NCBI GenBank assembly: GCA_950295325.1
Contig: OX485808.1
Coordinates: 12,030,501 to 12,094,500 of the forward strand
Source: Polytrichum commune
Taxonomy: Eukaryota > Streptophyta > Polytrichopsida > Polytrichales > Polytrichaceae
Length of the DNA stretch: 64,000 nt
Direction of reading: 5' to 3'
Made by a program: the position numbers and the translations under genes. The notes beneath the pieces were generated by a model. The model did not search any database, had not been told where the DNA came from, and worked only from the letters and a program-made list of their open reading frames with translations. Position 1 is the stretch's first letter. Every line of letters starts with the position of its first letter. Positions 12,766-27,576 of the stretch are shown in pieces.

Positions 12766-15700
12766 ATGACGCTAACGACGGCGAAGCCTGCTGAGGAGGC
12801 GGAGACACACACTGTTGATTCCGTGTTTTCTTCCCGTTACGTGCAGGAATCACTCCCCAAGTAACTAATTCTCTCATCCCTCTTGCCACTACCTCGCTCA
12901 TTGAATTCTCGTCTCTGTTTTCACGAGTTGCGCAGTTCAGGTAGCGCAATCCAGGTTTAAGTGCTGGACGAAGCATCTAGTGGTCGGGGTCAAAGTTCTT
13001 CTTGTATGGGATTCTCTAGCTTGAGCAACAGGAGTGCACTGCAGAATACACCAGAGGTTTTGCCTCGGGATTCTATTAGATTAGTGAGAGCTGATGTGTG
13101 TATGTTCATGAGAGCTGAAATGCTTCGAGAACTTCGATCATAATGTCATCTTACTGGAAGAACAGACTCTACTAGCCCTTTTTCATATCCTTGTAGAGAT
13201 ATATAGCACTCAGCCAAAACTTCCTGCCAAAATTTCTGTATCGTAACGTGGATATCTTGAAGGAGAGACAATGGAGACGGAAGTTTTGGATATAAGATGG
13301 ACATCATTCATGAGATTGAGGTTTTCGTAAGAATGTTTGCCATGGAACTCAACTGATGCCTATTCCAAACGTTGTCAATCTGCACTCTTCCAAATTTGAG
13401 GTATGGAAGAGTGTAATCCTTGCCTTCTTTTCTTTATCTCATCGAATATTCGATGTCAGATGGACTCTACCCCGACAGGAGATTTCGAAGGATGCTGCAT
13501 ACCAGACCATTTTTGACGAGCTCATGCTGGACGGCAACCCACGCTTGGATTTGGCGTCGTTCTGCACCACATGGATGGAGCCCGAATGTGACAAACTCAT
13601 TCTTGCATCGCTCAACAAGAACTATATTGACATGGATGAGTATCCCATCACCACTGAGCTTCAGGTAAATTCCAACGCCTTGGTGCGTCGAACTCTAGAT
13701 TAATTAGTCGAATCAGAATGACGCCCGTCAGGTTACAGGACGAATCTGTGAATTGAGTTGAAGAGATGCATTGTGGCTGATTTCCCTGTAATTATCAGTT
13801 GAATGAGCTGGGAATTGTTTGAGGGCATAGAGTCTAGACGTGACGAGTGCGAAATGTGAAGGACTTCGAAACTTGATGGCATGTCTCGTCCTCGGACATT
13901 GTTTGATGTGGTTGCTCGATGTAGGATCGATGCGTGAACATGATAGCTCGCCTTTTCCATGCACCGCTGGAGAATGGCCAACAAGGTATTGGAGCAGGGA
14001 CAGTAGGATCCTCCGAGGCCGTGATGCTTGCGGGATTGGCCGCAAAGCGCAAGTGGAAGAACGAGCGCATGGCTGCCGGAAAACCGTATGACAAACCAAA
14101 TTTTGTGTGCGGCGCAAATGTCCATGTGCGACATCCTTCCCAACTACCATCTGTTGCATATGATATGACCAAATCACTTTCGAATTTCCAAATGCAAAGA
14201 CTCCTTCACCATGTCATTCTATATGTTTGTTCAGTCTTTGATTGTGAAGTCATCGAAACATGGCAGGTTGTGTGGGAGAAGTTTGCTTCTTACTTCGAGG
14301 TGGAGATTCGAGATGTCAAGCTGAGGGAAGACTTCTATATCATGGACCCCGTGAAGGCCGTCGAGCTGGTAGATGAGAACACGATTCTTGTATGCACGAC
14401 ATTTGGATCTACATACAACGGAGAGTTCGAAGATGTGAAAACACTCAACGATCTGTTGGACAAGAAGAATTCGGAGCATGGGTGAGCATTCTAAATCTCT
14501 GCACACTCCACTTGTCCGAACATAAGACAACAACAGGGGGCCACGATCCTGCCATGAAATCCTGTCCTAGCATTTCAATGACTGCTACGGGAAATATATC
14601 TCAGCGTTAATGTTCTTAATTGCGGGTGATTGATGTTACCTTGCAGGTGGAATGTTCCAATTCACGTGGATGCGGCAAGCGGTGGCTTCGTGGCGCCATT
14701 CATCTACCCCGAAATCGAGTGGGACTTCAGACTGAAGTGGGTGAAGAGCATCAACGCAAGTGGCCATAAGTACGGGCTCGTATACCCTGGCATCGGGTGG
14801 GTGATCTGGCGTAGCAAGGAGGAGTTGCCGGAGGAGTTGATTTTCCACATCAACTACCTCGGCACCGATCAGCCTACTTTCACCCTCAATTTTTCAAAAG
14901 GTATCCACCACCGCACGTATTCTCAGTCGCACCGTTTCACATTGCTCACCATTCATATTAAGACAATGACGCGCAATCAAACTGTGCGCCGTAGCATTCT
15001 TCGACAAATGTCTTACCTGCTATCTTGATGGTTGTGCAGGATCAAGTCAGATCATAGCGCAATACTATCAATTCCTTCGTCTCGGTTTTGAGGTACGTAC
15101 CTCGTCAATCTTTTCCCCGGTCTTGCGAATCATGTCATAATTTCTTGTGCGCGAGACTGGTCGGAGAAGAGAATTTGGGTATTGGAATATTCATCTGTAT
15201 CGCATGGAAGTTCATTTCGTCGATTTGGTTGCGCAGGGGTACAAAAAAGTAATAACAAACTGCCGAGCGAATGCGAAAGCCTTGTCAGACGGTATTGTCG
15301 CCATAGGAAGGTTCAGGCTTCTGTCGAAGCCCGTGGGCGTACCTCTTGTTGCGTTCTCCCTGTTGGACGACAGTGAGCATGATGAGCACGAAATTGCGGA
15401 GGCATTGCGAAGGTATGGCTGGACCGTTCCTGCGTACACCATGGCTCCCAATGCGCAGAGTGTGACACTCTTGCGTGTGGTGGTGAGGGAGGATTTCAGC
15501 CAGGGTCTTGTGGATAGGCTAGTAACAGACATCAAAAGAGTGTTGCAAACACTCGATGCGCGCCCCTCCAAGATCATTGAACACATCTCGGAGAAGGCGA
15601 AAGATAAGCACGACAATGTGGATCCTAAGAAGGTGACGCCAGCGCTTGTCAATGATGCTACGGAGCATGTGAAGGCCGGTAAGCACAAAGAGGAGAGGAA

Positions 15701-15815
15701 CCAGGACCATGTCTCTGGTACAGATGCTTCCGTCTTCGATAGGCGCCACAACGAGAAGGGTCACTTCAATGTACACAAAAAGCACGGCCTGCACAAAACC
15801 AATGGAGTTTGCTAA
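12766..15815 (+). CDS. GAD: Plant-type glutamate decarboxylase, 7 exons, 533 aa
   Basis: Cytosolic PLP enzyme converting L-glutamate to GABA and CO2. Exons: 12766-12860, 13460-13664, 13925-14125, 14267-14481, 14647-14900, 15040-15092, 15237-15815; all introns are GT-AG and phases match (1602 nt). The start at 12766 is chosen because this exon encodes the typical N-terminal [11 protein letters not shown], which joins in phase to [16 protein letters not shown] in exon 2. Seen motifs: [43 protein letters not shown], and the PLP-lysine motif SINASGHK (K280). Length is slightly above the usual 490-500 aa because of a longer Lys/His-rich tail. The tail ends KTNGVC, like the KTSGIC end of plant GADs, but has no tryptophan in its last ~90 residues. 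Since the usual calmodulin-binding segment needs that Trp, Ca2+/calmodulin control may be altered (inference). Family assignment is firm; the expression pattern is unknown. Confidence 0.95.
14126..14266 (+). other. GAD: Stop-free 141-nt intron of GAD (intron 3)
   Basis: The intron lies between exon 3 (ending GANVH) and exon 4 (starting VVWEKF). Removing it restores the family sequence GANVHVVWEKF. Its length is a multiple of three and it holds no in-frame stop, so retention would insert 47 residues without shifting the frame. The donor is GTGCGA and the acceptor GGCAG. Confidence 0.8.
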
Positions 15816-16966: not shown

Positions 16967-19900
16967 TTACTGGGACAGACTCTTTCGCTTTTTGTAGCTC
17001 AAGGCTGCAAAGGTCCCAAGTCGAAAAAGTATGGCAAATAAAGCCAAGGCCAGCATGTCGTAAGGTATGCGAGCATTCTCCAAGGTCCGATTATACTTTA
17101 GAGTGGTCCAGACGAAAGCATTCTTTGCATCTATCAGGCGGTCACAATCACATCGTGGACAAGCTGTTGGATCGTTGAGGCATGCCATGTTGGTGCCGGA
17201 GTCTAAGCAACTGGGTTTGTCGGTATCACAGAAGAAAGCGATAGAGGTGAGAGCATTCAGTGCATACTGGAGAGGATTACTCCAAAAGACCCATATAACT
17301 GTCTTGAGAAGTTTGCGCTTCGGAACAACAGAACCTCCAGTGGAGGTCCAGAAGCCGATGATAACGGGAACAACACTAGCTGCAATCTGCACATTGGCAA
17401 TGTCACGGGTATGTATCAGCAACTAGAAGCAGGAGACAATCTACCAGCTGAATAGAACAGAACACACCATATCGCTCATTCATATAGGCTACAAAGTTGG
17501 AAACAATTCTACAGTTTTTTAGCTATCATAGCTTCTAAATCAGACATCGCATTGGAAACATCACAGTTCTAACCATGTAGAACTTTGTATACCCGTAAAG
17601 CACAGCAAGTATGATGGGCGGTGATCTAGAGGTCTCACTGAGAACGAGCAATTTATGACAGCTCACCTGAGGTTTGGGACTGATTATCACAATGAATATG
17701 CCCAAGAAAGTAATGGCCAGGCAGAATTCAAAGAGCACGAAGTAGAAACGGAAAAACTGGGCTGCTGAGTGTACTGCAATCTGTGCCATGAGGCAAAATA
17801 CAAAACAAAGAAGCATTGTTGACACTGCCAAATATGGTACCTGTCAATCAAACAACATGACATTATGAAAGGGGGGTCTCAAAATAGTAGGTACAAGAGC
17901 TTTTTTTTCAGCAGCTCAAAGATACTCATGAGAAACTACTACATACAAGTTTACCATGGTATGTTGGGAATAGAGGCGAGTGCAAAAGGGAAAATGTCAC
18001 AGGGTTGTCACAGAAACATTATTGAAAAAGGTTGAATTGACACTGAAAAGAAAGGTATGACCTCAAAGATCTCACATCAGCGACACAAATCAGAATAAGA
18101 GGTTCAAAAGTTTAATATGCCTTTAGAGAGACAAAGAAAGGAATACAAAACTCCACCACAGTCCACAGACCTGTTGCTGTTGCAATAAGATTCAACGAGA
18201 TTATGAGAGTTCACCTCTGCGAAAGTCCATGCAAGATTATGTAGGGACACGCTGTACTGATGGCTGGCCTGCTCCCTCTGGAAACTGGGGCTCATCCTCA
18301 AAACCTGGGGGATAATGTTTTGAGCACTACTGATTCCTAAGAGAATACAGGTTATGAAGAGACTTTGAGACTTGACATTCATATTCACAGTAGTGTGGGG
18401 ATTAATATTGAAGTAGACAGAGCCCAGTATAAGACCCATTAAAAGGGCGCTTGTCATTCGGTTAAAATTATAATTCACATTCCGCCAGTAGAACCGCTGT
18501 ATCTCCAGTATAATCTCCCAGGCCATCAATGAATAAGGGGCACGGTAACCAAATTCCAGCAGCTCCGGCCCATTCTGGCCTTTCGAACGGCGGAGGTTTT
18601 GTAATTGAATGTGATTGCGAAGGGCCATCTCACTCACACGATACTCAAAAGCATAATCCCTTTGACCCCTGCTGTCAGCAACCCCATCACCAATCACATC
18701 AATGGCATGTGACACAGGGCTCGTGCATGCAGGGCACAATGGAGTCCCTGGTATTGCTTCAAAATATTTCTGCACAAACCAAAAACATTTAGGTGCATCT
18801 CATATAGAAACTGCAGTGACCCATAAAGTACTCCTACAACTATTGTCAATAGCCAGGATACATGATACATCTTTTTTCTAATAGCAATTCATGAAGAGCC
18901 TGCGGTTTTCAAAGGGAAAGGCCCTTTTAACTGACAGCAGGTGGGGTGCTCTGAGATCAGAAACTAGTCTGGAAGTTCACGTTCGGATGGAAGTATACCA
19001 GAATTTGTGAATAGTAGAAACGTCTTTAAGATATCTCTAGGTTATTTCACGCCTTATAAAAAAGATAAACATCAATATCGTTCTGAAATCTTTATATCTT
19101 CTGCGCAAGTTGAGACAATATGAGAGGGGGCAACACAACGAGGTGAACATATTAATGGCTGACTCTTCTGCCTCAACACTCATACAAGGGTATAGCCCTC
19201 ACTGATTGTGAGATGCGAGACTGAATTGAATCCCTGAAACGCTTGCCACTGCCATTTCTAGTTTGTGAACAAGGAAAACAGAAAGATATAGCCTGATGCA
19301 CCAGATTACTTGGTCTTAGGACTTCGAATTAAGGTAGACTTGAATTGCTGCTATTTGACACCGATCATGCTGCTGAGAATGGCCTAAGAAATGGACCAAC
19401 ACCGATAGAGGCGAATAGACAAAGATACAAGAACAGGAACGGCTAAGTACTCACCCGAAGCAGCTCTGCGTTGGTTCCAACTGGACCAAAGTACACAGTT
19501 TCGCCTCCTCTTTTGAGAAGTTGAACGCTTGTGAAGGCCATCAATTGGCGGGGGCTAGGCTGTGTCAGAGCAGCTATGACAAGCCTTCCAGTGTCAGCAA
19601 TTCTCTGTATGCATGTTCCCACAAAATATTATGCCTACATAGAGTGTTCAATTTTTTAGTAAAGGCAAATCTCTGGTAAACCTCATTTTTTCACGTCTTC
19701 GTATAATTCCAACCAGTTCAGGAAGACAAGAAAAGAAATTGATTTTGGCCAGGATGATGGTTGTTATTGCTGCAGGAGCCAGCTATGTAGAGCAAGACAC
19801 AAGCTTCTCCCATAGACCCGCCCTGAGATTCTCTTATCAACTTCACAGATATTCTTCAAAAGCTGCAAGGATCGAGTAATTGTTGCACGTAGGATCATGG

Positions 19901-22900
19901 TATGCGAATTAGAAAGTCAACCACTTCGTGTATCAGATGGAACAAAAAAACTCACTGCCATGGCAGCAACTGCAAAAAGCTCTTAAACAATCCTGCCTAC
20001 CAATTTGTTCGCATTGAGAGAGAAGATCAGACCTTGAGGCAGTCAATAATATGACCAGAAGTATGACTGTCGAGTCTTTTAATTGGCTCATCCAGAAACA
20101 AGACGCTCGGGTTGCCAGCAAGCTCAGTAGCTATTGATAGACGGACAGCCGAATCTCGAGAAATCTCCTCATTACCTATAGAAAGTAGCAGGATGTCCGA
20201 AATATGGCCGATTCCCACTAATTGGATAACCTGCATTCCAAAGACTTGACAAACTTAATTTGTTGAGCTATCATTAAGTGATCAGGAACCCACACCCTAA
20301 TATTCAAAGTACCCATTTAGAATCTGATTGCCTGAGAACTTTATAAACTTTCTTCTGCTGATGCGATCAATTTGATGAGGGTGTTCCAGCACCATTAATA
20401 ATTGTAAACGAAAACCACTTCGGGTGCCCTCACTAGCGTGAATTAGCAGACCATGCTACCACTCAATTTCCATACTAATGAGGTTGGCCTGGAAATCATT
20501 CAACGCTCGAGCAAATCCACACATGCAATGACTTGTGGTGGTCATGATTGAGACAATCAAGTAGAGAGATGTCGGCCTGCTTTACTAGTTGTAATCTCCC
20601 CCACATTATATGTCACGCAACAAAAGGCCTTCAACTTAATGAAGAGGATACTGGGAGAGTAACCTACCTCTTCAACAAATGCCTTTCGTCTCTCAGTTGA
20701 AGCCTTTTTCCCCAGTCTCATCGCAGCACTTAACTCTACTGCTTCTCGAACGGTCATGAATGGAGCATATGAACCGATTTCCTCCACATAGCCCTCCACA
20801 TGGGTAAACGTTTTGTGCACCTTAGGATACCCATTCACCAATATCTGGCCCCCAATGCGAGCAAGCGCCACATTCCGCCCTAAATTGCAATTCATAGTCC
20901 ATAAAAAGCTGAACTTAAATCAGAATGAAATAAATTGAAATTGACCCAAATATACCAAATGCTTTAAATTACGTCCAAGACAATGATGTCAAAATACATG
21001 CTGAATCCTGGAATCCTGGCATGCACGCCTTGGGCTTTGCTTGAAAGCAGAGTCAAAAGCACCCATGCAGCCAAATTCAAAAAACTGGGGAAAGGTACAA
21101 AAGAAGTGCAAAAAAACATACTGCGAATTCTTTCAGCAACTGAATGTAAACCAGCACAAACATACTTTTGTGGAGAGGTTCAACTAGTTGTCATACCCGC
21201 AAGGCAGTTTAGTAATGTTGTTTTACCAGCTCCAACACCACCTAAGAAAGCAACCATCTCCCCAGTCTTTCCCCAGCCGGATACATAGTTTAGCATAGTG
21301 TATGTCTTCGCAATTGCTGGTATCATGATGTCATAACTCAGTTCATGCCAAGATAATGTTACAGGGATCGATGTAAAGCACAGCTTAATCTCTGGATGCC
21401 CCCACTCTTCATCTTTTATCTTTACCACATGTTGCTCCTTCGAAGTGAGCTTCATCTGCAGAGCACCACCTCCTCAATTTAGAACAGGTTTGATAATTAA
21501 TGCATCCTTACCCTCATGTTAAAGGACAGCCTCATGTTAACATGAAATAGGATTAAATTTGTAATCTATCATGTGCAGCAATAAAAGCTGCGCTGCTGGG
21601 AAGAGATTCGGAAGATCATCAGATGTTAATCATTACCTCCAAGGATGGCGCGAGAGACTGGGTTAGGTGTCTTATTCTTGCAAGAGCATAATAAGCTCCG
21701 AGATTTAGAAGCACAATCCATCCAACCAATACAGCAACAGCAACAGCTATCCAGCCGTTGCTTGTGTAGAATTGTCCTTTCGCTAAAAAGGCGTGGCCTA
21801 CTGAATTTGTTGATCGGCCAACACATTGAGGGATGTTTGCAATGTTTGGCACTTGACTGCACAGAAGACTGTAGTCTTTTGAGTTGTATTCGTTGATGAC
21901 CAATGCCGTTATGGCCCATTGTAGGGGGTCTATGTAATACGCCCAAATCCAGTAATGTGGTACATTGAAACGAGGCACCAGGAACCCAGCAAAAAGTATG
22001 AAGACTGCAATGAGCACACCTGAATCACAATGCAAGAAAATGCAACATGGTTCAGTTCGGACTCATTATACATCAGAGAGGAAGGTACTTTATCCATTTT
22101 TGCAAGTCAATTCGCAACATGATTCCTCTTACTTTATGCAGATAACCAAGGGACCTACTCTTGTTGAGAATCTGCGCTTCATTTAGACGTAAATGGAATA
22201 CATTTAAGTCGGCAAAAGTCGGGCTGTTGAGGCTTCATTTACTTGTATCAAAGTTGAGGGTAAAAAAGTAGTCGATCACCTATAAGAGCATTTGCAACAT
22301 CACGATCAGGAGCGAAGTACGCCATGAAACGAACTAGTGAAGCGCCATTTACGGCGGTCAAAGTTATGATGATGAGATAGACCCAGAAGTGCCAACCTCC
22401 ATCTTTGACAGAGAGACCAGTCAAAAAATATGTGATTAAAGTCCACAAGGTTGCCTGCAACAAACCAGAGTAAATATGTCAATAAAATTCTAGCATGTGC
22501 CAGTCAAACAGACTTATTCTAAGTGAAGGTGCAGATCGTGATTGATCATTCCTCTACTCAATTGTCACTCTCTAGTTGGGCAGAATTTGGTGTATATTAC
22601 TGTAGGTTTTAAGGGCTCAGAAGTTGTTTCTCATCCTTCATGTGTTTCTAAGTGTACACATTTTTAGCAGTTTCAACTCAAGTCTGAAAGATTGATTCTG
22701 TTAAAGCATGGGCCCTACTTTGTGCCAAAATGCTTGGACATATGTCATAGTTTACTAGCCCTACTTGGCCTTGACGTATTGAGATAGTGGGAAAAAGTCG
22801 TTCATTCTCAAAGCGGACGAGCAAAGGAACACAGAGAATCACAAAATAAAGACTGAAACCTCGAATATTGTCATCGGTAAGCCCCCCAGAACTTTTGCAA

Positions 22901-25900
22901 AGAAAAATGATTGAGGGCGATAGAAATGAGCCGATTGCTGTTTATAGTAGATGGAACGCTCCTCCATGAGAGCTGGTAGCTGACCCAAATTAAACATTGT
23001 CATGTTCAGGATGGATATAAAGAAAACACCACGAAGTAAGTTCATATCAAGCTGGTCCGGCTTATGCTGCACTCGAAAGAAGACCACTCCTGTATAAGCG
23101 CTCATAATCAGAACCTGCCACCACAACACCACATGCACTGAGAAAGATAAACAGAGAAAGAGAGAGGACAGGACTTAGAAGTTCAACCTGTGATTTCATT
23201 TCAATAAATGATGCAAGCATGTAATTTGATCAATTAAAACCTAAGGACCTTGGAATTTGAGATCTGAGGGAGGGAGAATACTACCTGAGCAACCCGTATT
23301 TGAAGAGCAATTTTGTTACGAAATATAACCTTCAACTCCCTTCTCAGAAGAACCCTTGCTTCTGGAATGGGATCCAAGACATAGTCTCTCTCAAATTGCA
23401 TGGAAAGATCCTTTGTGACCTGCAAACACACAGAAGCTGAATTGACATACTGGGACCATTGTGTCTTAATACTCACCTACCAAAAGCTCAAGTGGCATAC
23501 TTCTCCAAGTTGAGATCATACCAAGATACCATTAACCATCAGGAATCTCTTAACCAGTTGTAGCCTCTATATTGTGGACAATGTGTACACTCAAGTACTA
23601 GGCAACTATTTGTCAATATATGACTTGCCGGGGACATCCCAGTCATCCCAGTTATTCTTGTATCAAGCCAACTGGAGCTTATTTGTCATTACCAGCCATT
23701 TGTGCTATAGACAGACAGGTTCAACGTTCAACTGAGGATCGCATACATCCCTCTTTGTCTGCAAAAGACATGAATGTATATCTCTGAAAGAACAGTACAT
23801 GTGCTTTGTTGTGAGGTCTCTCGAGCTGCAACCGCACAGGTTCTGCAACCTCATCAATAGCCTCTGCAAGACGCCCTCCCACAATGTGATTGCCTTGATT
23901 ATCATCCGCTTTAAAATACTTCAGTATTTCGCCAGCCCCACCAACCGCCACAACTTCATCTCCAGGAGAAACAGTGGAAGTGTGATTCATTGATACTTCT
24001 GCAAGACTTCCCCCTTTCTCTATCACTCCTGCCACCAGGGTCGACAACGAATCACCCAATCCGATTCCATGGTTTGATCGACTCTCTGTGAAACCAAGAC
24101 CTAAAGGCTTGTTACCCTGCAATCGAGGTCAAACAAGACGAGGTGGCTTACTGACGCATTTACTTTCAAAATGGGGATAGATTATTCACTCACAAAACCC
24201 TCAAATCAAGAAAATCGCATAGCACTGACCAAGCACTGACCCTTTCACGTTACATTTTGCAACTCAGTTGTCACTTATCCGTAAAGATAACTGACTTCAA
24301 CAAATGAAGATAAATAAAATGGTGACAAGCAGTGGCAGTATGGATAACAAAAGTTTAGAGATTTTGTAGTCCTAGACAGGAAGTATATATAGGCCTTAGA
24401 AAGAAATCTGACCTGTAACCAAAGCTCCTGGACAAGATCAACACTGTCAACGACTCTGCGAATATCTCTAAATGTTGGAGACAAGAGGAAGCTAGCCACA
24501 AAATCATCACGCTCTAGACGTGGATACCCAGGTTGCAAGTAACGGACGCCCTCTGGCGTGGTGACCTCTTGCAAGAATTCACTTGTACTCAAATGATTGG
24601 GCTTGACATACCTGAACAAAGAGTGCAGGCAATGTAAGAATCTTCTCTAAACACAATCATCTAAGTGGCAAATATGAGTTACATTATATGGCATTTTCTG
24701 ACGTATACTGACAACATGGGAGCAGCATAGGTTCGTCTTTGAACCGCTTACCCGAGAGTCTCAAAGTATGGTAGTACATCTTGACGTGGTCCTTGAAACA
24801 TGACTTGACCGCCATCAAGAAGTATTATGCGATCAAAAAGAGCAAAAACTTCTGAAGGAGGTTGCAAAATATGTGCCAGCACAGCCGCCTGGCGAACTCT
24901 TGCAAATATGCGTACACTTGTCACCAAGTCGAAGTCCACCCCTGTGCAAGTATTTATATTGAAGCATCAAATCTCGTAAAAGAGAGACATACGAAGAACA
25001 ATACACCTCTTATCTTCACTGTAAGTTTGATGATGGTTGGATGTAAATAAACCTAATGACACAAAAACATAAACTCCTGGTAACAGAAACCAGATAAAGA
25101 GTGATCAAATTTGGTAAATGCTTTACCACCGGTAAGTTGATCAACTATGTACACTGCATAAGTTCCAGCGGTCATTTCAGCAATGGTTAGACGATGGCGC
25201 TCTCCCGGAGTTAGTGTTGGCATCGCTGGGCTTCCAACAGGTCTATCAGCAACTCGTTTCAAACCCATCATGCTTAAGTTCAATTCCAATTTAGGGTCTT
25301 GCTTCTCCTTGAGAGCCTCCCCCATAAGTGCCTTGAGTTCCTCACTATAATGCTTAGCTCGGTATGCCTGAGAACAATCCCGCGCAAATTCAAGTGTTTC
25401 ACGTACGGTAAGAGGAGGAAGATGAATGTCCACTGAGGATACCAAGGCTGCAAGGCGCTCATATCTAACATCACCAACATTCTTCCCATTATAAGTTACC
25501 GTGCCTGCAAGTGAATCGCCTGGACTAATTGGACGGCCTCCAAGTACACGCAGCAAGGCGCTTTTGCCAGCTCCTGGGGGCCCTGCAACAGTTTACTAAC
25601 CTCAATAAGCAATGCAGAAGTAACCGAAATGATGAGAAATAAAAACATTGTGTCTAGCAGATTTATATATATGGCAATTGCGAAGTTTTGGTCAGGGTCA
25701 ATGTATCCAGGGGAACCTTGTCATCAGCCTCAGCTTAATTTTATCTAGACTTTCTAATTTATTGTTTCATATTTTTATTGTAAAAAAGTTCATTGCAGAA
25801 ACAGAACACCTTCAAGGGGTTTGCAGATTCACATACCTACGATAAGCGTGAGGGTCCCAGGCATTAGATACCCCGTTACATCTTTCAACACTGTCACGTC

Positions 25901-27576
25901 CTCAACGTGAGCTCTTTGGAGAATGCCTGTAAGTAGTCCTTTTACCTGTAAATGAATCGTATGAAGATGCTCCAACATGGATCAGTGGTCACATCTTCGA
26001 GACCAGGACTATTACAGAATAATTGGGTCCAGAGAACAGTACCAGTAGTAGCGCAAGTATCTATTTGGCCGTCTCACAAGAATATAAAAAAAAACTGTAC
26101 CTTTGTAAGCATGGTCTCATAGCCCTTCTCCATTTTGACTTTAGTTGAGTATGTCAAGCCCTTGAACTTCACAATCTACGAACACAGAACAGGTGTGTCA
26201 ACCATGTTCCTCAATAAACCAGGAAAACAGATTCAATAAGATAAAGAAAAGTGAAACAAGAGACCCTTCACAACTGGGTAATGTTTTAGCAAAAAATAAA
26301 AGTAGCAATTACCTGGGAGGGTATTGGAGGTAAATGCGGCTGCACAGACGTTAGATACTTTAGCAGCCCTTCCTGCAACAGTAAGTCCATGCCTTTCAGC
26401 TCCTCTCCACTGATTGATTCTGCTCTAGTTGGAAAGCCAGCAAGAACGTTTGTAATCCTCTCAGCTTCTTCTAAAAGTCCGTGTCTCAAGAGTGCCTGGT
26501 GGTACAAGCTCACTAAATGTATGAGAGATGCTTGAGGAGCTTCAGCCAAGGTAGCGTAGAAATCTCTATTTAAATCTAAAGTTCTCCCTTCTTCCTCTGT
26601 TATTTGGGACTCGTACGGCATTCCAGCTCCCAATAAGATGTTTCCGGGAGTTTCAAATCCGGGGGTCGCCAGCCCCAATCTACCAGTACCTCCATACGTG
26701 CCATCCTCCGACGCCTCTGAGAACTGGAAGTTGTCTCCATCGCGTTCATCACCTTTATCAATGACGACCAGAAGCAATCGTGAATGAATGCTCATATTCG
26801 CTTAAGAAAAACTTCTAGACGCTTATGAGCGCTTGACCTGAGACCTGAGATTTCCCAGTTCTCTCCTAGTGAGACAGAACCGACTTGATTCATGCCAAAT
26901 TGTATTGAAAATGAAAGGAGATGCTGAATGCATTTTAAGTGTCCACAAAAGCAAGGGATCTCATTTAAAAATTTCACATAGATATGATATTTTCACCTGT
27001 ACTATATTGAATGGCACCCTGTGTTGATCCTTCTGTCTCTCCATAGCTCTCATGTGAACGTCGTGCTGACTGCTGTCTCTCAAAGAATCTGAATGAAGGT
27101 GTCTCTTCAAGGCCTCTGTATTCCCGTGCTTGGTTTCTCATACTTGAAGCCCTTCTTAAATTCTGAAGAGAGAGGGCACGATCTTGCCACTCGCTCAATC
27201 CCTCCTGGAGCAGGTCATCAGTATCAAATGTCAGGGTATCACTATCAACGCCCTGATCTCCTATCGTGACGGGCGCTGGCAGAGGTCGGATTCGAGACGA
27301 GCCAGTAGATCTTCCCCTCCGAAGAAGTGGTCCTGCTTTGTAAGGCAACTGTGAAGGTGTTCCTCTATCGCGTTCCGAAGGTGCTCTGCCATATCTGCCA
27401 ATATTAGGTCTGGGAACCCTGTCATCAAAAGTGCTTGTAGAATCCAAGCTCATACGAGACGCTGTTGACTCATCACCTGCCTCTCGTGCCATACCATCGG
27501 AACCTTCATCCTCTGTCATCATGGTATTATGTTCTTCCGAACCAGTATTGTTTATATGTGCCATCGCCATAACCAT
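16967..27576 (-). CDS. Full-size ABCG/PDR-type ABC transporter with embedded PDZ-like domain, 19 coding exons, 1760 aa
   Basis: Exons, high to low: 27576-26997, 26752-26313, 26175-26101, 25945-25837, 25582-25127, 24941-24752, 24611-24413, 24116-23799, 23419-23285, 23114-22860, 22454-22280, 22019-21637, 21455-21197, 20879-20668, 20230-20033, 19604-19455, 18769-18215, 17840-17667, 17386-16967. All have GT-AG borders and phase is kept throughout (5283 nt). Order: acidic, Ser/Arg-rich N-terminal region (~1-345); NBD1 with Walker A GPPGAGKS (K408); PDZ-like exon (684-789, GLGF at 689-692); TMD1 (~800-1105); NBD2 with Walker A GGVGAGKT (K1183) and FLDEP (D1309/E1310); TMD2 (~1380-1760). The reverse NBD-TMD order is ABCG/PDR-like. 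It is longer than usual plant PDR proteins (~1450 aa). NBD1 has LTPGE in place of the signature and VDQ in place of Walker B DE; NBD2 has ISRDSA at the signature. The start at 27576 is the first ATG after acceptor-like sites, so a 5' UTR intron is likely. Substrate unknown. Confidence 0.88.
23799..24116 (-). other. PDZ-like domain exon of the ABCG transporter (106 codons)
   Basis: This exon starts and ends in phase 0. It opens with GNKPLGLGF, which holds the GLGF carboxylate-binding loop of PDZ domains. It continues with AGVIEKGGSLAEVS and VSPGDEVVAVGG, the usual PDZ strand and turn pattern, and ends with VRLQLERP. PDZ domains bind C-terminal peptides and act as scaffolds. The domain sits between NBD1 and TMD1, so it should face the cytosol. 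The domain call rests on motif reading only. Confidence 0.75.

Follow-up and report, generated by a model that had tools for sequence, protein, structure and literature searches.

Full-size ABCG transporters of the PDR type, such as fungal CDR1 and Pdr5, follow the domain order NBD1-TMD1-NBD2-TMD2, and ABCG topology puts the linker between NBD1 and TMD1 on the cytosolic side of the membrane. In fungal PDRs of the Pdr5 type, some of the ATPase motifs are degenerate, and one good composite site is kept. ABC transporters may also be served by PDZ domains: the animal transporters CFTR and ABCC2 use NHERF PDZ scaffolds, in an arrangement where the C-terminal peptide belongs to the transporter and the PDZ domain to its partner. 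Most plant proteins with PDZ domains of the LSF1/ZKT-like kind are plastid proteins. At the level of listings, the open-access literature offered us no description of a PDZ domain within an ABCG/PDR transporter, and a survey of non-canonical regions in ABC transporters (PMC13257379) has, by its listing, no mention of PDZ; domain databases may already list a PDZ-ABCG architecture in other plants or algae.

The gene described here lies in a stretch of 64,000 nucleotides from the genome of Polytrichum commune, referred to as the window in the following. By descent and architecture, it is a full-size ABCG transporter gene of the PDR type. With a canonical PDR of the same genome on C4 and with CDR1/Pdr5, it shares the domain order and the PDR_assoc region after TMD1, and the linker motif of canonical PDRs (DFLQEVT/EFLQEVT) is likewise found before its insert. 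Compared to CDR1, about 94 extra residues extend from the linker to TMD1, as counted in a paralog that we call PARA, and catalytic motifs are missing from both NBDs of the window copy. Between linker and TMD1 lies a unit that has a KPLGLxF loop, a GD turn and a closing strand in common with LSF1, with chain G of PDB entry 9iiu and with the PDZs of two other genes of this genome (L026/L027 and L028). Unlike these LSF1/ZKT-like PDZs, however, the unit sits inside a membrane transporter, has longer loops and falls below Pfam detection. Degenerate ATPase motifs are a trait in common with the Pdr5-type PDRs, but in the window gene key residues are lost at both sites. If the unit binds peptides, the PDZ docking of an ABC transporter would be an element in common with CFTR and ABCC2, with the difference that the PDZ domain is here found inside the transporter. 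A PDZ domain in the linker of a full-size ABCG is an unusual architecture, common to two old paralogs, of which the window member is probably ATPase-dead.

The gene model runs on the minus strand from 27576 to 16967 and comprises 19 exons, which encode 1760 residues with no internal stop (Table 1). It is based on reading frames, splice dinucleotides and homology; its exon borders are predicted, and its start codon is uncertain. All 18 introns have GT-AG borders, and 12 of them are in phase 0. The order NBD1-TMD1-NBD2-TMD2 follows from Pfam matches together with the order of the exons. In the Pfam scan, ABC_tran matched two stretches (E = 9.2e-31), of which the one displayed is NBD2, while P-loop families matched the Walker A region of NBD1 at residues ~396-415. 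ABC2_membrane also matched two stretches (E = 1e-70), one of them at residues 811-1022, and a partial match to ABC2_membrane_7 lies ahead of the PDZ-like unit (residues 580-629). After TMD1, PDR_assoc (PF08370) scored 27.2 bits at residues 1047-1098, against a cut-off of 24.9. The first exon (26997-27576, minus strand) encodes a charged extension of ~193 residues, to which no Pfam family matched.

Table 1. Predicted segments of the ABCG/PDR-type gene, in window coordinates.
Segment	Position	Strand	Phase
Exons 1-3: N-terminal extension, of which PARA shares the later part	26101..27576	minus	
Exons 4-6: NBD1	24752..25945	minus	
Exon 7: last part of the NBD1 linker (YVKP...SEFLQEVTT...) and probable first strand of the PDZ-like unit	24413..24611	minus	
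Exon 8: residues 684-789, the bulk of the PDZ-like unit (GLGF loop through closing strand VRLQLERP)	23799..24116	minus	0/0
Exons 9-12: linker/elbow and TMD1, followed by the PDR_assoc region	21637..23419	minus	
Exons 13-16: NBD2	19455..21455	minus	
Exons 17-19: TMD2, then the C-terminal end (...KKRKSLSQ, with the stop codon at 16967)	16967..18769	minus	

Exon 8, which holds the bulk of the unit, stays open for 106 codons when read on the minus strand from 24116 to 23799. Its translation begins with GNKPLGLGF and terminates in VRLQLERPHNKAH, and its borders, marked here by a slash, are an AG acceptor (GATTGCAG/GGTAACAAG) and a GT donor (GCACAT/GTACTG). The NBD1 linker (SEFLQEVTT...) ends ahead of the unit, and behind it the chain leads up to TMD1. 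The initial annotation had described a single exon with phase 0 at both ends, located between NBD1 and TMD1, and on both points it was right: with its AG acceptor and GT donor, the exon fits a continuous reading of 19 exons and 1760 residues, and the ABC2_membrane match begins downstream of it. The GLGF loop, which had been called perfect, is present in GNKPLGLGF, but its counterpart in PARA reads GLKI. The donor of exon 8 (CAT/GTACTG) is weak, being the sole donor among 18 without a G at position -1. As the length of the exon (318 bases) is divisible by three, so that a transcript without it would stay in frame, an isoform that lacks the PDZ, or regulated skipping of the exon, is possible.

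The paralog was found in a search of the 408 Mb genome with exon 8, which revealed a relative of the unit on another chromosome, at 19.786 Mb of C2, with 32% identity and E = 1.3e-4; the reverse search with the PARA unit reported the same two genes. PARA is another full-size ABCG, with the unit at the same place as in the window gene. The PARA unit reads DTEELWLEAAKPLGLKI...GTVVVDEV...QVQAGDQITAIG...VRLQLERP. The two units agree letter for letter in ELWL, in the KPLGL loop and in the final strand (VRLQLERP) and have diverged elsewhere, and over the NBD1-TMD1 half of the proteins 249 of 646 aligned residues are identical. Because the unit occupies the same place in both genes, its insertion should be older than the split of the pair. 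The stretch between the flanking aligned blocks counts 166 residues in PARA and 72 in fungal CDR1 (9iuk), a surplus that fits one inserted domain of about the size of one PDZ. Only in the NBD1-TMD1 half is the kinship of the two genes clear, as the window gene's TMD2 exon is closer by score to the C4 gene for the canonical PDR (E = 1.8e-8, 25% identity) than to PARA, which it matches in two short pieces (E = 7.2e-4 and 0.004, 35-36% identity). PARA also has a likely GC-AG intron (CAG/GCAAGT) after the exon with the NBD1 signature, at C2:19784108 (6108/6109 of L003).

In our reading, the unit is a diverged PDZ domain akin to the LSF1/ZKT-like PDZs of plants, an assignment that is more certain in PARA than in the window gene. 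A PDZ-like identity had been proposed by the initial annotation; it is supported by a profile comparison with its shuffle and sliding controls, but not by a Pfam call, and structure prediction gave low confidence. In Pfam, a profile search of the exon against PDZ families, which had been suggested as a check, gave no PDZ match, and the same holds for the whole window protein, for the unit with its first strand included and for the PARA unit; in NCBIfam, no PDZ family matched either unit. The Pfam PDZ profile appears to be insensitive for PDZs of this kind, since two related units from the same genome straddle its cut-off of 23.2 with scores of 19.9 (under) and 23.4 (just over). These units were assembled from genome matches to a plant PDZ stretch, and one of them matches solved chains in the PDB, namely chain G of 9iiu (E = 9.6e-20), which is named a 'PDZ domain-containing protein', and LSF1 of the chloroplast (8j5d; E = 2.3e-6). 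For the unit itself, a PDB sequence search with exon 8 gave a single match (E = 0.46), and a search with the two-row profile of the window and PARA units gave nothing better than E = 0.4.

Compared by hhalign to a reference set of four plant PDZs (LSF1, 9iiu chain G and the two units from the same genome), this two-row profile reached a probability of 95.3% (P = 2.2e-8, score 47.6), with profile columns 8-110 aligned to columns 6-85 of the 87 PDZ columns. None of 300 column shuffles attained this score, the best one yielding 20.5, and leaving out each of the four PDZs in turn gave scores of 40.5-45.0. When the rows were compared singly to the PDZ set, PARA scored 42.9 (94%) and the window unit 24.2 (24%), so that the PDZ call for the latter leans on PARA. 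Against single PDZs, the profile scored 31.8 with 9iiu and 26.3 and 22.5 with the two PDZs of the same genome, each over 40-47 columns, and 16.6 with LSF1, which is at background level and covers 13 columns. As a control, 250 real open frames were scored in the same test. The top three (~33) are copies of exon 7 of the window gene, which score through nine residues (DLVQELWLQ) inside the profile itself, and the fourth, at 24.4, is a real PDZ, a piece of sequence (L021) with GMLVVESVVPGGPAYKQLEPGDVLIRANGE in a frame that Pfam PDZ matches too; the remaining frames, among the matches listed, scored 16.9 at most. Likewise, a window of 115 columns slid along the aligned transporters gave one peak (48.05), located at the PDZ-like unit, with partial overlaps at 17-42 and positions beyond the unit mostly at 7-13. 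The features that the unit shares with PDZs can be summarized as KPLGLxF ... GD ... LxLERP, and a chance open frame as its source was rejected in view of the paralog and the profile match to PDZ.

The predicted structures are less informative. AlphaFold was given each of the two exons with the other as sole further row and with the first strand left out, and returned low-confidence models in both cases (pLDDT 52.5 for exon 8 and 60.0 for the PARA exon). In the exon 8 model, the order of strands and helices would be compatible with β3-αA-β4-β5-αB-β6, as in a PDZ domain devoid of its first strands, but our reading places no weight on this order. Foldseek and VIA-align found no reliable match between these models and solved structures; among the Foldseek matches listed, the PDZ chains are two DVL entries and LSF1, at ranks 25, 32 and 43 (E = 1.7-2.2). 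With models of this confidence, such a lack of PDZ matches is no argument against a PDZ fold, with its five or six strands and two helices, which the unit is presumed to adopt.

Within this genome, the unit appears to be confined to the pair. Whole-genome searches with either unit reported no third copy, only the window gene and PARA, and an HMM built from the two units found nothing with E < 1 beyond these two genes in 6913 open frames of 26 sequences. This sample consists of the window and 25 loci, 15 of which (L005-L019) are pieces of other ABCG loci, each covering the stretch from NBD1 to TMD1 and together representing a subset of the ABC2_membrane matches. A PDZ hidden in all PDRs of the genome was rejected on the basis of the HMM and the whole-genome searches, and the unit is not a general trait of the PDR genes covered. 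The canonical PDR at C4:9.76 Mb (L005) has an ordinary linker; it is among the nearest NBD1 relatives of the window gene, with 44% identity over 80 residues, and another place on C4 has a better E-value. In viral contigs and prokaryote genomes, 32 and 27 stretches fit the pattern of the unit, respectively, and none was confirmed as a relative, which is expected for a plant gene.

The second unusual trait of the window protein concerns its ATPase motifs. Walker A is intact in both domains (GPPGAGKS in NBD1, GGVGAGKT in NBD2). In NBD1, the signature reads LTPGE, Walker B has become YIVDQ by a change of E to Q, and the D-loop is lost (VDQLTGG). In NBD2, the signature reads ISRDS and Walker B is intact (FLDEP), with a D-loop of KRLD (DEPIKRLD) and an H-loop, ALTQP(S), in which H is replaced by T. 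The Q-loop is replaced in both domains, by S in NBD1 and by E in NBD2. By motif reading, the window protein thus has no composite ATPase site with Walker B glutamate, signature, Q-loop and H-loop. Both sites should be impaired, and judging by this loss the protein would not be filed as a working pump.

Among its relatives, PARA has intact motifs in NBD1 and NBD2, and NBD1 motifs are intact at 14 of 15 other loci, three of which (L017-L019) look half-size. At the remaining one (L011, C1:66.9 Mb), regular expressions found no NBD1 signature; these expressions favour intact motifs, so that another broken copy could be missed. The NBD2 survey covered the 16 best places of the genome search, 13 of them in full-size genes and three (L043-L045) half-size-like. 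NBD2 motifs are intact in PARA, in 11 of 12 other full-size loci and in L043-L045. At C1:66919130-66919441 (L031; part of the L011 gene, judging by its position), NBD2 reads MDKPTSGMD and TINQPS and contains an in-frame TGA, and this locus at 66.92 Mb looks like a decayed ABCG copy. The window gene and this locus are the two loci found with degraded motors, and only the window gene is free of stops.

We favour the view, at a probability of roughly 0.6, that the two genes form an old pair of PDZ-bearing full-size ABCGs, whose window member has lost powered transport and would act as a docking or regulatory protein. In both proteins, a diverged LSF1/ZKT-like PDZ domain would be part of the linker that joins NBD1 to the TMD1 elbow helix, on the cytosolic side if ABCG topology applies. 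There, it could dock a partner protein beside NBD1 and thereby tether the transporter or couple its gating to the partner. In PARA, such docking would act on a working pump, whereas the window protein, its powered transport lost, may persist as a PDZ-bearing partner, perhaps of a working ABCG. The idea of the initial annotation that the transporter gains a peptide-binding scaffold of its own is plausible, but peptide binding cannot be assumed for a PDZ of the LSF1/ZKT-like kind. Self-docking by a C-terminal tail is unlikely, since neither tail (...KSLSQ in the window protein, ...KYDRR in PARA) is a classical PDZ-binding one. More tentatively, and with the odds rather against it, some land plants might have a distinct class of full-size ABCGs with a PDZ domain, in which an ATPase-dead member docks or senses and possibly acts on its intact sister.

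How the unit came to its place bears on its origin, and the answers overlap with the functional readings. The initial annotation held that the symmetric exon matches the domain exactly and that this is a sign of exon shuffling; neither part is supported. A conserved probable β1 strand (LVQELWLQ, aligned to TEELWLEA in PARA) falls at the end of exon 7, at 24436..24413, and in the alignment of the two genes ELWL directly precedes KPLGL, in one exon in PARA and split by an intron in the window gene. The 5' phase-0 intron of PARA lies eight residues farther upstream than that of the window gene, an additional phase-1 intron interrupts the PARA unit, and the only intron at the unit common to both genes is the phase-0 intron at its 3' border. 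Moreover, 0-0 exons are ordinary in the window gene (8 of 17 internal exons), so the symmetry of exon 8 is no sign of shuffling. A recent shuffling event that brought in a complete PDZ module in one exon would account for the 0/0 phase of exon 8 and for the phase-0 introns that also enclose the two-exon unit of PARA. We nevertheless regard it as very improbable, given the β1 strand beyond exon 8, the unshared 5' intron, the extra PARA intron and the abundance of 0-0 exons, and it could hardly be recent, as the unit is older than the paralog split. Since the whole PARA unit, β1 included, lies between phase-0 introns, an ancient insertion via introns could still have taken place.

Other explanations concern what the unit is and what the window gene still does. 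The unit could be a structural spacer derived from a PDZ, which has kept the fold, binds no peptide and stiffens the linker, with the window gene still encoding a transporter, albeit one with unusual motifs. The units of the two paralogs are just 35% identical and differ in the loop (GLGF versus GLKI), and LSF1/ZKT-like plant PDZs often have no known ligands; but the identity of ELWL, the KPLGL loop and VRLQLERP in both suggests constraint, and we consider the spacer unlikely, if a serious contender. We give a small chance to the gene being a decaying copy, with broken NBDs and a drifting unit, on its way to a functionless pseudogene. Each NBD has suffered several motif losses, the donor of exon 8 is weak, the window unit has moved farther from the PDZs than its PARA counterpart (24.2 versus 42.9), and the locus at C1:66.92 Mb illustrates that ABCG copies may decay. 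Yet the gene runs through 1760 codons with neither stop nor frameshift and has canonical splice dinucleotides at 18 of 18 introns, and the identity of 249 in 646 residues implies that there was time for neutral stops to arise, as at C1:66.92 Mb; the stop-free frame thus favours a protein that was kept in a non-pumping role over a decaying gene. Finally, the absence of PDZ matches in Pfam and NCBIfam and the poor AlphaFold models would be accommodated if the unit were another small α/β domain, or an insert specific to the lineage, with PDZ motifs by mimicry. This appears distinctly unlikely in view of the end-to-end alignment to four plant PDZs, which is stable to leave-one-out and far above the shuffle and sliding controls.

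If the preferred reading of an old PDZ-bearing pair is correct, a PDZ domain within the pump, placed by the joint that passes the motion of NBD1 to the membrane, would reverse the animal arrangement, and a built-in PDZ would equip a plant transporter with a docking site of its own. With intact motors in one sister and broken ones in the other, such a pair would, in addition, make a docking role testable apart from pumping. Further along the window, a neighbour that converges on the ABCG gene was seen as open frames at ~13320-15815 on the plus strand; it reads like a glutamate decarboxylase, which we presume it to encode.
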